A stretch of 38,618 nucleotides of DNA. It comes from Parvibaculaceae bacterium. GTDB lineage: Bacteria > Pseudomonadota > Alphaproteobacteria > Parvibaculales > Parvibaculaceae. The notes beneath the pieces were generated by a model, which ran no database searches, was not told where the DNA came from, and saw only the letters and a list, made by a program, of their open reading frames with translations. The position numbers and the translations under genes are program-made. The stretch covers positions 101,491-140,108 of the forward strand of contig JARGNZ010000006.1 in the NCBI GenBank assembly GCA_029209985.1, read 5' to 3'. This document shows, in pieces, positions 21,376 through 32,766 of the stretch (position 1 is its first letter; every line of letters starts with the position of its first letter).

Positions 21376-21452
21376 CGGAGCGTAGCGCAGCCCGGTAGCG
21401 CACTTGTCTGGGGGACAAGGGGTCGTCGGTTCAAATCCGGCCGCTCCGACCA
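21376..21452 (+). tRNA. tRNA-Pro (anticodon GGG)
   Basis: A 77-base tRNA that folds by eye. The acceptor arms are CGGAGCG and CGCTCCG, with discriminator A and an encoded CCA end at 21450-21452. The D-arm AGCGCAGCCCGGTAGCGC is normal. The anticodon stem CTTGT/ACAAG encloses the seven-base loop CTGGGGG, whose middle triplet is GGG. The T-arm has the GGTTCAAATCC pattern. It reads CCC and CCU proline codons. Its location after ihfA-merR is common in Alphaproteobacteria. Confidence 0.96.
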
Positions 21453-23535: not shown

Positions 23536-23889
23536 ATTTGCTCGCATTTTCAATTTGACTACGGAGGGTCATCCACTGGGACATGATACCATCCTTATCA
23601 TAGCCCCGTAATGTTACAAGGATTGATGGGGGGCAGAGCGCTAAGGAAGCCAATGTTTTGGCATGGCTTTCACTGTCTTGACTGTTGACAGAGATGAGGC
23701 ACTCTCACCCTGAAATGGGACATGCTGCGTGGGTTTGGTTGGCAAGAGAGGCTGGGCTGTTCCTTCGTCATCAGTTTAAATGACTTGCCGCTTTCTGGGT
23801 AAATCCGTGGACATATGGGGGCAATTGGGGCACTCTGCGCTCAGAATTTGAGTCTATAGGTAGATGAGAAAGTTTCGAGAGGACATAAC
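23536..23889. other. intergenic region before the 26-aa membrane peptide
   Basis: About 350 bases between the divergent rimK fusion and the small peptide gene. No ORF with a good ribosome site, no tRNA-like fold and no long repeat is visible. Promoters for both flanking genes must lie here; TCTATAGG near 23850-23860 could be a -10 element for the peptide gene, but no convincing -35 box accompanies it. Confidence 0.4.
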
Positions 23890-23970
23890 ATGGACGCGAT
23901 TTACGCAGTTTCAATCTTTCTGGGCGTGATTATTGCGCTAAACATCATGTCTTATGGTCGTGCTGACTAA
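23890..23970 (+). CDS. 26-residue single-span membrane peptide
   Basis: ATG 23890 opens a 26-codon frame ending in TAA at 23968-23970. The ribosome site GAGAGGA is perfectly spaced (six bases), and a strong intrinsic terminator follows 22 bases after the stop, so it looks like a complete monocistronic gene. The peptide is MDAIYAVSIFLGVIIALNIM followed by SYGRAD: one hydrophobic span (about residues 4-20) flanked by a short acidic N terminus and a polar C-terminal tail. This resembles small accessory subunits of membrane complexes, such as the oxidase subunit CydX, in size and shape only. Nearby genes concern heme A synthesis, so a respiratory partner is a guess. I do not recognise the family. 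Confidence 0.7.
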   Translation: MDAIYAVSIFLGVIIALNIMSYGRAD

Positions 23971-23992
23971 GCTTGAGACATGCAGACGATAT

Positions 23993-24019
23993 AAAGGCGG
24001 ATCATTGATCCGCCTTTTT
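23993..24019 (+). terminator. bidirectional intrinsic terminator after the 26-aa peptide
   Basis: AAAGGCGGATC (23993-24003) pairs with GATCCGCCTTT (24007-24017) around an ATT loop, followed by T-rich sequence. The leading A-run lets it also serve the convergent DUF2842 gene. Confidence 0.9.
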
Positions 24020-24042
24020 GTTTTTGGGTCTGTGAACTTACC

Positions 24043-24276
24043 TTACTCAGCGTCTGGTGCTTGCATCCAATTGAGGAGGTATTTTACGGGAATAACCCAT
24101 GCAAGCCCGGCGAGGATGTAACAGGCGAGTTGGAGCCAGAAGGAAATTGGCGGAATAAGGCTTAACAGTGCTGCAGCGATGAGCGTGTAAATGGTCATCC
24201 AAACAATCAGAACAATCATACCGATGAGTTTGCGCAACCGCATGGGCAGGCGTTTTTTGGTAGATGTGTCTGGCAT
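24043..24276 (-). CDS. DUF2842 domain protein
   Basis: A 77-residue membrane protein with a basic N terminus (STKKRLPMRLRKLIG) and two hydrophobic spans, IVLIVWMTIYTLIAAALL and WLQLACYILAGLAWVIPV, closing with KYLLNWM. This is the short alphaproteobacterial DUF2842 family. It is divergent from the heme A synthase gene, an arrangement that recurs in this class and suggests a link to oxidase assembly, though no function is established. Confidence 0.82.
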   Translation of the reverse strand: MPDTSTKKRLPMRLRKLIGMIVLIVWMTIYTLIAAALLSLIPPISFWLQLACYILAGLAWVIPVKYLLNWMQAPDAE

Positions 24277-24466
24277 TTTAGTCCTATCCGGTTTTCGGTT
24301 TGGGGTGGGCTTCGGGCTGCTGAGGCTTTATAGCGCAGCTTTTGGCGCGTGTAGGAATTGTCTCACCCTCAAAAGAGGTTTACTTATCTCAAGGTGAGTA
24401 GGGGAGATCAAGTGGCTCCCTTCTGTTTTACCGATTTTCCTGTAATTGCGACAATTTGGATATTCG

Positions 24467-25543
24467 ATGACTGATGTGACTGAGCAAAGTTTGATGAGCG
24501 ACCAGGCGGGGGGCAGTTCTGTGGCGCAAAAACCTATTGCTATTTGGTTGTTTTGCATCTGTGCGCTGGTGATGTTGATGGTCGTTGTCGGCGGTGCGAC
24601 GCGGCTCACGGATTCTGGTTTGTCGATCACAGAGTGGAAACCTGTGACCGGTGCCTTGCCGCCTTTGAGTGATGCGGCATGGCAAGAGGAACTTGCGAAA
24701 TACCAACAGACCCCCGAATACGAGCGGGTAAATCACGGCATGAGCCTGAGTGAGTTTAAGGCGATTTACTGGTGGGAGTGGGGGCATCGGTTGTTGGGCC
24801 GATTGATTGGCATTGCCTTTTTTGTACCTTTTATGTGGTTTTGGCTGCGCGGCAAAATTGCCCGACCCTTGATGCCGCATCTGCTGGGTCTGTTTGTTCT
24901 GGGCGGGCTACAGGGCTTTATGGGCTGGTATATGGTGATGAGCGGATTGGTGGACCGGGTTGATGTCTCCCAATATCGGTTGACGGCTCATTTAGGGCTG
25001 GCGATTGCGATTTTCTCCTACAGTTTTTGGCTTGCTCTTGGTTTGGTGTTTCCTCATGAGGGAAAAACCGGACGCAGTGGTGTTGGGTTTAAGCTTGCCG
25101 CCTTGGTGGCTGGCCTGAGCTTTTTCCAAATATTGTTGGGTGGCTTTGTCGCGGGCCTTCATGCAGGACGAATTTATACGACGTGGCCATTGATGGACGG
25201 GGCGTTTATTCCTGACTCACTTTTCTTTATGGAACCGTGGTGGCTTAACCTGTTTGAAAGTCGGCTCACGGTGCAATTTAATCACCGGATGGGCGCATAT
25301 CTCTTGTTGATTGCGGCCTTGGTGCAAGTTGGATGGGTGTTGCGATCGCACCGAAATATTAAGGCGCTGCGGATCACGTCCCTTCATGTCGCTGGTTTTG
25401 TTGTGCTGCAAGCGGGCTTAGGTATTTGGACCCTGCTCATGGCGGTGCCGATTGGTCTGGGTTTGATGCACCAATGTGGGGCGTTGTTAGTGTTAAGTGC
25501 TGCGATTGTTCATCTGCATCAGTGTTATAAGCGCGGACTTTAG
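24467..25543 (+). CDS. ctaA: heme A synthase (COX15/CtaA family)
   Basis: A 358-residue membrane enzyme with about eight spans that oxidises the methyl group of heme O to a formyl group, giving heme A for aa3 cytochrome oxidase. Family motifs are VVVGGATRLTDSGLSITEWK near the N terminus, YWWEWGHRLLGR (heme-ligand histidine), LTAHLGLAIAIFSY, QFNHRMGAYLLL and LMHQCGALLVLSAAIVHLHQ. ATG 24467 has GGA seven bases upstream; the frame extends to a TTG at 24446 without better support. No cytochrome oxidase subunit genes or ctaB are in this window. Confidence 0.95.
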   Translation: MTDVTEQSLMSDQAGGSSVAQKPIAIWLFCICALVMLMVVVGGATRLTDSGLSITEWKPVTGALPPLSDAAWQEELAKYQQTPEYERVNHGMSLSEFKAIYWWEWGHRLLGRLIGIAFFVPFMWFWLRGKIARPLMPHLLGLFVLGGLQGFMGWYMVMSGLVDRVDVSQYRLTAHLGLAIAIFSYSFWLALGLVFPHEGKTGRSGVGFKLAALVAGLSFFQILLGGFVAGLHAGRIYTTWPLMDGAFIPDSLFFMEPWWLNLFESRLTVQFNHRMGAYLLLIAALVQVGWVLRSHRNIKALRITSLHVAGFVVLQAGLGIWTLLMAVPIGLGLMHQCGALLVLSAAIVHLHQCYKRGL

Positions 25544-25604: not shown

Positions 25605-26879
25605 TTAGCCTTTAAGAGCTTGTGCCAAGTCTGCAATGAGATCATCCGCATTTTCGATCCCAACGCTGATGCGCAGTACGTCTGGCCCCGCACCCGCCGA
25701 CTTTTGTTGCTCTTCATTGAGCTGGGCGTGGGTTGTGGATGATGGATGAATGATGAGGCTACGTGTGTCGCCTACATTGGCTAGGTGACTGAAGAGCTCA
25801 ACTTTGCTCACCAATGCGACGCCCGCGTCGTAGCCGCCTTTTACCCCGAAAGTGAAAACTGCGCCCGCACCATTGGGGGTGTAGGTCTTCATAAGCTCGT
25901 GGTGGGGGTCGGTTGGCAAGCCAGCATAAGTAACCCAGCTAATTGCCTCATGAGCATTCAAAAACTCAGCCACTTTTTGGGCGTTGGCGCAATGACGTTC
26001 CATACGCAAAGACAAGGTTTCAATGCCGGTCAGAATTTGAAAGGCGTTGAACGGAGAAATCGCTGGACCCAAATCACGCAAGCCTAATGTGCGGCAGGCG
26101 ATGGCGAAGGCGATGTTGCCAAATGTCTCGTGAATTTTGAGGCCGTTGTAGCTTTCGCATGGCTCAGACAGGGTTGGATATTTACCACCCGCTGACCAAT
26201 CAAATTTGCCGCCATCGGCGATGATGCCGCCCATGGAATTGCCGTGTCCGCCCAGAAACTTTGTCGCGGAATGAAGCACAATGTCGGCGCCGTGTTCGAT
26301 GGGGCGACACAGGGCCGGAGAGGCCAATGTATTGTCGACGATGAGAGGGATGCCCGCTTTATGTGCTTCGTCTGCAATGGCTGCAATGTCGATCACAACG
26401 CCGCCTGGGTTGGCGAGGCTTTCAATGAAAATCGCTTTTGTTTTGGGGGTGATGGCCCCTGCAATTGTTGTTGGATCTGTCGCGTCGAACCAATCTACTT
26501 CCCAGCCGAATTTTTTGAAGGCATGACCAAATTGATTGATGGAGCCGCCGTATAGTTGACGGGCCGCCAAAAAGTGATCGCCGGGAGCAAGCAATGTATG
26601 GAAGGTAAGTAGTTGGGCGGAGTGACCTGAGGCCACGGCAACTGCGGCGGTCGCGCCTTCAAGGGCGGCCACCCGTTCTTCAAGCACGGCAGTGGTGGGG
26701 TTGGTGATGCGTGTATAGATGTTGCCGAAGGCTTGCAGGCCAAACAGGCTGGCGGCATGTTCTGCATCATCGAATACGAAAGACGTCGTTTGATAGATAG
26801 GTGTTGCGCGTGCGCCCGTGGTTGGGTCTGGCTGCGCGCCTGCATGAACTGCAAGGGTTTCAAATTTGTGATCGCTCAT
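25605..26879 (-). CDS. metY: O-acetylhomoserine sulfhydrylase (O-acetylhomoserine aminocarboxypropyltransferase)
   Basis: A 424-residue Cys/Met-metabolism PLP enzyme. The N terminus FETLAVHAGAQPDPTTGARA and PIYQTTSFVFDDAEHAASLF are characteristic of the MetY branch, as is the length, which is longer than MetB/MetC. GNIYTRITNPTTAVLEERVA and VIVD-type strands follow; the PLP lysine is K207 in HSATKFLGGHGNSMGG. It makes homocysteine from O-acetylhomoserine and sulfide, bypassing cystathionine. It is the last gene of an enoyl-CoA hydratase - CoA-binding protein - metY operon. No SAM riboswitch is seen in the 36 bases before it. Confidence 0.94.
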   Translation of the reverse strand: MSDHKFETLAVHAGAQPDPTTGARATPIYQTTSFVFDDAEHAASLFGLQAFGNIYTRITNPTTAVLEERVAALEGATAAVAVASGHSAQLLTFHTLLAPGDHFLAARQLYGGSINQFGHAFKKFGWEVDWFDATDPTTIAGAITPKTKAIFIESLANPGGVVIDIAAIADEAHKAGIPLIVDNTLASPALCRPIEHGADIVLHSATKFLGGHGNSMGGIIADGGKFDWSAGGKYPTLSEPCESYNGLKIHETFGNIAFAIACRTLGLRDLGPAISPFNAFQILTGIETLSLRMERHCANAQKVAEFLNAHEAISWVTYAGLPTDPHHELMKTYTPNGAGAVFTFGVKGGYDAGVALVSKVELFSHLANVGDTRSLIIHPSSTTHAQLNEEQQKSAGAGPDVLRISVGIENADDLIADLAQALKG

Positions 26880-32737: not shown

Positions 32738-32766
32738 AAGGGCGTGCACATGGTGCACGCCCTTTT
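32738..32766 (+). terminator. bidirectional intrinsic terminator between argC and phaC
   Basis: AAGGGCGTGCAC (32738-32749) pairs perfectly with GTGCACGCCCTT (32753-32764) around an ATG loop, followed by TT. Its T-run touches the phaC stop codon, so the convergent genes share it. Confidence 0.92.

Follow-up and report, generated by a model that had tools for sequence, protein, structure and literature searches.

A 26-codon frame beside DUF2842 and ctaA as a probable gene for a one-helix membrane protein in Parvibaculaceae, Caulobacterales and relatives

The locus and its flanking genes

The window, by which we mean the whole 38,618-nucleotide stretch of a Parvibaculaceae genome that was analysed, carries at positions 23890-23970 of the forward strand a 26-codon open reading frame, running from ATG to TAA; it appears to be a gene, its product a single-span membrane protein (MDAIYAVSIFLGVIIALNIMSYGRAD), and its homologous frames are under purifying selection. 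The start codon is preceded by the Shine-Dalgarno sequence GAGAGGA (23877-23883, forward strand) and six bases (CATAAC), while an intrinsic-terminator-like hairpin on the same strand (23993-24017), comprising 11 perfect pairs, a 3-base loop and a T-rich tail, begins 22 nt past the stop codon. Both elements had been described with this spacing in the original prediction and both were recovered. The 17-residue hydropathy maximum of the peptide is 2.4, reached in one segment whose length is enough for a membrane span. The window contains 297 ATG-initiated frames of 20-40 codons, nested starts included. Three of them lie at or above the hydropathy threshold and two of these have a Shine-Dalgarno core, namely the frame at 23890 and one starting at 26425, which is antisense within a long gene.

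Perfect stems of at least ten pairs followed by a T run occur at only two places in the whole window. A consensus terminator scan of positions 23540-24470 returned one site, no excess over shuffled sequence (mean 1.0, sd 1.1), and a consensus scan of the same interval for sigma-70-type promoters returned none (shuffle mean 0.9). Terminators were found at 4 of 162 family loci, that of the window included (shuffle expectation 0.3); the terminator is a feature of the genome from which the window derives and not a trait of the family. The second perfect hairpin with a T run in the window, of 12 pairs (32738-32764), is likely to be another terminator.

Downstream, the peptide gene faces a convergent DUF2842 gene (PF11003; 24043-24276, reverse strand), which is followed by the heme A synthase gene ctaA (PF02628; 24467-25543, forward strand); both neighbours had been predicted and are confirmed by their Pfam domains. 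Upstream lies a fusion of RimB-like and RimK-like domains (PF05618 and PF08443; 22171-23535, reverse strand), which yielded no blast match at 18 listed related loci. The gap in which the peptide gene sits, put at 460 bases beforehand, measures about 490-507 bases from the RimK-like gene to DUF2842. A tRNA-Pro(GGG) gene (21376-21452, forward strand), the tRNA being the only match returned by Rfam, lies 2.4 kb from the peptide gene and is separated from it by the RimB/RimK fusion and a DUF2938 gene.

Selection on the frame and distribution of its homologues

The family was assembled as 166 distinct loci encoding 146 distinct peptides, using a collecting motif (ATG, 25-29 residues, N18, [GK]23, [RS]24 and a small set of residues at positions 3, 4 and 26) that renders length and those residues constant partly by construction. 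Peptide lengths were 26 (150 loci), 27 (14) and 28 (2) within the 25-29 residues that the motif permitted. Substitutions across the family show a clear preference for synonymous change. The ratio pN/pS is 0.31 in frame for 46 pairs in which each sequence is used once, and 0.35 for 96 nearest-neighbour pairs, compared with 1.12 and 2.41 for the two remaining forward frames, and differences at codon positions 1, 2 and 3 number 104, 53 and 197. For pairs picked by similarity of the frame, identity is 0.90 within the frame versus 0.50-0.60 in the flanks. In genus g3 the peptide is identical in five genomes (L006-L010), any pair of which differs by 2-9 synonymous changes and no amino-acid change. 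A Shine-Dalgarno core, defined as GGAG, GAGG, AGGA or GGGG, precedes 138 of the 166 loci; for a control stretch the count is 21 of 166. The original prediction, that a gene for a single-span membrane peptide had been missed here, would have fallen had related genomes held no homologous frame or had substitutions shown no synonymous preference; both were looked for and the prediction stands, strongly supported at the level of sequence by homologous frames, synonymous bias and Shine-Dalgarno sites. These patterns indicate that the 26-codon frame is a functional gene in which selection acts on the protein, from which we infer that it is translated.

Homologues were sought with progressively broader searches. 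A search of 98 genomes with the single sequence returned full-length matches of 26 residues in Parvibaculaceae at 50-62% identity, and it overlooked most of genus g5, which a profile recovered, so that absence in a single-sequence search is not true absence; divergent members of the family may still be undetected. By profile match (E 0.01), 36 of 40 Parvibaculaceae genomes carry a homologue, as do all 27 of those with completeness of 90% or more and contamination of 5% or less. The weakest of these matches (G028, E 0.0066) nevertheless has a frame of the family form. Class-wide, full-length short frames were found in 30 of 387 genomes from 11 families, comprising 29 genomes at E 2.4e-8 or better with profile A3, some of whose E-values are partly by construction as A3 includes rows from matched genomes, and one (G005) at 9.4e-9 with profile A2. 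Two genomes of family f138 (G203 and G408), for example, reach just E 0.0015 with A2 and 3e-10 under A3, one row of which was typed from these genomes. Genome G259, whose two matches both lie at contig ends, was counted once. Below the counted set the next matches begin at E 0.0017, and 18 further genomes, with E from 0.0017 to 0.1, were excluded; among uncounted matches, inspection covered G280 and also G112, which scored with A2 only. These two candidates, the former with a 31-residue frame, were rejected as carriers (no start codon, no full-length match). Profile A1, with E values up to 1 allowed, matches 106 of the 387 genomes, mostly by fragments, many of which fall within long frames. 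In a phylum-wide sample of 299 genomes, whose composition is only partly listed and in which the known carrier G203 falls short of the threshold, ten genomes match A2 at E 0.001, every one belonging to the same class.

A degenerate DNA pattern, for which 100 shuffled versions of the window gave no match, matched at least 118 stretches in named records; since it fixes the length at 26 and several positions as well, the named carriers represent a lower bound. Among the pattern matches listed are mainly records of Caulobacter (C. vibrioides included), Brevundimonas, Phenylobacterium and Asticcacaulis, together with records of Hyphomonadaceae, Parvularculaceae and the PS1 and OCS116 clusters. Each of 15 named genomes (15/15) holds one full-length copy, three partial matches within frames of 386-447 residues not being counted as copies. 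One record titled Gammaproteobacteria (L080) shares its neighbour clusters, and has nearly the same peptide, with a record of the OCS116 cluster (L100); the title of L080 is probably wrong.

The peptide itself has no match in Pfam or NCBIfam, and a comparison of 44 members with these databases gave only weak matches by one or two members (best E 0.02 and 0.078, respectively). Solved chains in the PDB included none that matched the family profiles, and no description of a 26-residue family of this kind was recognised from titles or abstract openings in the literature. Gene callers usually apply a minimum of about 90 bases, and with its 81 bases the gene falls below this limit and is therefore probably unannotated in most carriers. 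Carriers include genomes labelled Caulobacter vibrioides, a bacterial cell-cycle model in which genes are routinely deleted or tagged and pull-downs are standard practice. The available part of a Caulobacter ribosome-profiling paper (PMC4117421) reports 94 new coding sequences, among which the peptide gene may be included.

Genomic settings across lineages

Neighbours were compared across the family by Pfam scans at selected loci and elsewhere by a crude choice of frames that also picked up antisense frames. In 21 of 34 chosen carriers DUF2842 and the peptide gene are no more than 1.4 kb apart, convergent in 17 and on the same strand in four (G042, G170, G251 and G150, from two families). In these four, DUF2842 comes first, and the pair could possibly form a two-gene operon of tiny membrane proteins. 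One genome (G092) has the peptide gene directly upstream of ctaA. A tRNA-Pro(GGG) gene lies directly upstream on the same strand, at 29-214 nt, in 11 of 26 related loci scanned. Several families have the peptide gene beginning 29-72 nt past this tRNA on the same strand (L016, L012, L021, L031 and L023), which suggests that the two share a tRNA-mRNA transcript.

The block from FabH to rplM that surrounds the locus is itself syntenic. A C. vibrioides record and one from an uncultured Caulobacterales (L243 and L244) keep the order FabH, IHF, MerR, tRNA-Pro, DUF2842, CtaA and rplM and hold no short frame with the motif at their ctaA/DUF2842 locus, while each of the two genomes has one full-length copy of the peptide on another contig. 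As a rule, a short-chain dehydrogenase and folB come after the gene in Caulobacteraceae (confirmed by Pfam at L078, with the same blast clusters in many others), exceptions including L102, L117, L171 and L177. Most simply, these patterns can be read as relocation of the gene between two conserved settings, its sequence being retained. Six non-carriers that possess DUF2842 have no short motif-bearing frame beside it, although in one of them (L240) the stretch stops at a contig end. The peptide gene behaves as an autonomous one, with no constant neighbour, and consequently no partner can be deduced from its context. At one Caulobacter locus (L102, 4113-4673) and at L209 (4885-5352), a gene for a NUDIX hydrolase is present upstream in the opposite orientation.

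Peptide anatomy and candidate roles

Residue conservation was tabulated for 132 distinct peptides of 26 residues, in which several positions are fixed or narrowed by the pattern and the motif. Alanine at position 3 (123/132; narrowed by the motif), I7 (126/132), F10 (125/132) and leucine or isoleucine at 17 (119/132) are accompanied by N18 and G23 in all 132 peptides, F22 in 110, R24 in 124 and D26 in 131, positions 18, 23, 24 and 26 being motif-constrained. The C-terminal tail also recurs in 56 loci collected without the DNA pattern, which read GRxD (34), GRxG (14), GSxD (5), KRxD (2) and GSxF (1); in genus g5 it drifts, its last residue often being G, F or M rather than D. Lysine and arginine are absent from the first eight residues of all 146 distinct peptides and from residues 9-18 of the 132, and are present in the last eight residues of 141 of the 146. 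By the positive-inside rule, this asymmetry would place the C-terminus inside. The charged ends attributed to the peptide beforehand are widespread at the C-terminus (R24 and D26), but not at the N-terminus, where D2 occurs in just 3 of 132 distinct peptides.

When conservation is followed over residues 3-20, the dominant periodicity is the 100 degrees of an alpha helix, and the corresponding moment gives p 0.0065 for 33 profile-found peptides and 0.0027 for all 132. Over residues 3-17 the values are 0.018 (33 peptides) and 0.011 (132), and for the 33 profile-found peptides they are 0.018 over residues 5-17 and 0.045 over residues 5-16. The conserved residues A3, I7, F10, L17 and N18 share one face of the helix, and this one-sided conservation, together with a conserved asparagine, is what docking onto a partner helix would be expected to leave.

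Taken as a whole, these features point to a functional gene whose product is probably a one-helix accessory subunit or modulator of the inner membrane, docking by its conserved face on a larger membrane protein. Such a protein, 26 residues long in the window, would have its N-terminus outside and its C-terminus, typically E/Q/T/S-F-G-R-x-D, at the cytoplasmic surface. The face formed by A3, I7, F10 and L17, with N18 lying within the membrane, may dock on a helix of a larger protein or complex, while the G-R-x-D tail would terminate the helix and make contacts at the membrane surface. The peptide could thereby work as a small accessory subunit or modulator. The in-helix asparagine, the conserved face and the G-[R/S]-x-D tail provide a ready set of point mutants for finding the partner.

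The more specific suggestion that the peptide stabilises a respiratory or transport complex is only partly sustained: conservation on one face is compatible with it, but linkage to CtaA, occurrence of CydA and occurrence of a Na+/Ca2+ exchanger are all inconstant, and the neighbourhood gives a weak respiratory hint. On one rival reading, the peptide would be a small helper subunit acting with DUF2842, CtaA or both in the biogenesis of heme A or of the aa3-type cytochrome oxidase. CtaA is present in 34 of 34 carriers and DUF2842 in 31 of 34, versus 6 of 26 non-carriers (Fisher 7e-8), and to this may be added the proximity of DUF2842 in 21 of the 34 and the position of the gene ahead of ctaA in G092. 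The sets compared here and below (34 or 35 carriers, 25 or 26 non-carriers) were, however, chosen by hand and include near relatives, so the association with DUF2842 is confounded by kinship; the synteny of the surrounding FabH-rplM block likewise weighs against reading it as functional. The presence of CtaA, found also in 24 of the 26 non-carriers, does not discriminate, and constant linkage to ctaA fails in L243 and L244, which keep tRNA-Pro, DUF2842 and CtaA in place with the peptide gene on another contig. We regard a role in oxidase biogenesis as rather unlikely. A wider proposal, which we put forward tentatively and consider doubtful, is that the peptide founds an undescribed, vertically inherited family of about 26 residues and belongs to the core of a housekeeping membrane complex, as one of its subunits, in Caulobacterales, Parvibaculaceae and their relatives. 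It might there serve terminal-oxidase biogenesis jointly with DUF2842, and several lineages would express it from the transcript of a tRNA-Pro(GGG) gene. One-helix accessory proteins of the KdpF, AcrZ and MgtS type act on larger membrane proteins and are each tied to one transporter, whereas the present peptide has no constant neighbour, and the family gave no match to these types in Pfam or NCBIfam. The small subunits CydX, CydY and CydZ, described in the available part of PMC4325964 as very short, with one predicted transmembrane helix and few highly conserved residues, resemble the peptide in all three respects. As that source presents them, their genes sit in cydAB operons, whereas the peptide gene is never near CydA (PF01654): at E 1e-10, CydA was found in 17 of 34 carriers, in all 17 either on a different contig or at a distance of at least about 1 Mb. 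No CydX-type family is among the 12 Pfam families matched by any of the 44 members at E up to 10. A reading as a cytochrome bd subunit is disfavoured, with CydA not found in the other 17 of the 34 carriers.

Docking as an accessory helix, the reading that we prefer, can also be set against three further explanations. Modulation of a Na+/Ca2+ exchanger (PF01699) by a regulatory subunit, akin to the micropeptides that modulate ion transporters, draws on the exchanger being the next downstream gene on the same strand in four Pfam-confirmed lineages, namely Parvularculaceae (L097), Euryhalocaulis (L143, where it begins 19 nt past the peptide stop), G127 (L206) and G408 (L209). We nevertheless think it improbable, because at E 1e-10 the exchanger goes unmatched in 5 of 35 carriers, all Caulobacterales (G282, G348, G434, G435 and G440), which makes it untenable as an obligate partner. 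It is highly improbable, too, that the peptide is a small regulator of division or stress of the SidA type. The available part of PMC4211646 describes SidA as a 29-residue, inner-membrane, SOS-induced division inhibitor of Caulobacter under LexA control, and gives the Caulobacter LexA box as GTTCN7GTTC. By description, rather than by sequence, the two share a size class, a single helix, the inner membrane and an occurrence in Caulobacter, but, unlike the LexA-controlled SidA of that account, the peptide gene has such a box within 300 nt upstream at just 2 of 166 loci (L143 and L151). Finally, a short hydrophobic frame with a terminator-like hairpin next to it in the window might encode no trans-acting protein at all: it could represent a type I toxin or leader peptide, or be a frame that arose by chance next to a terminator. 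This appears extremely unlikely given purifying selection in one frame, the single full-length copy in each of the 15 named genomes and the rarity of the terminator across the family; downstream genes, moreover, vary by lineage or are convergent, so that a leader peptide would have nothing constant to control. Among the exchanger matches, those of one gene on contig C19 of G000 (62057-62996) fall in two overlapping frames, which reflects a frameshift or an assembly error.
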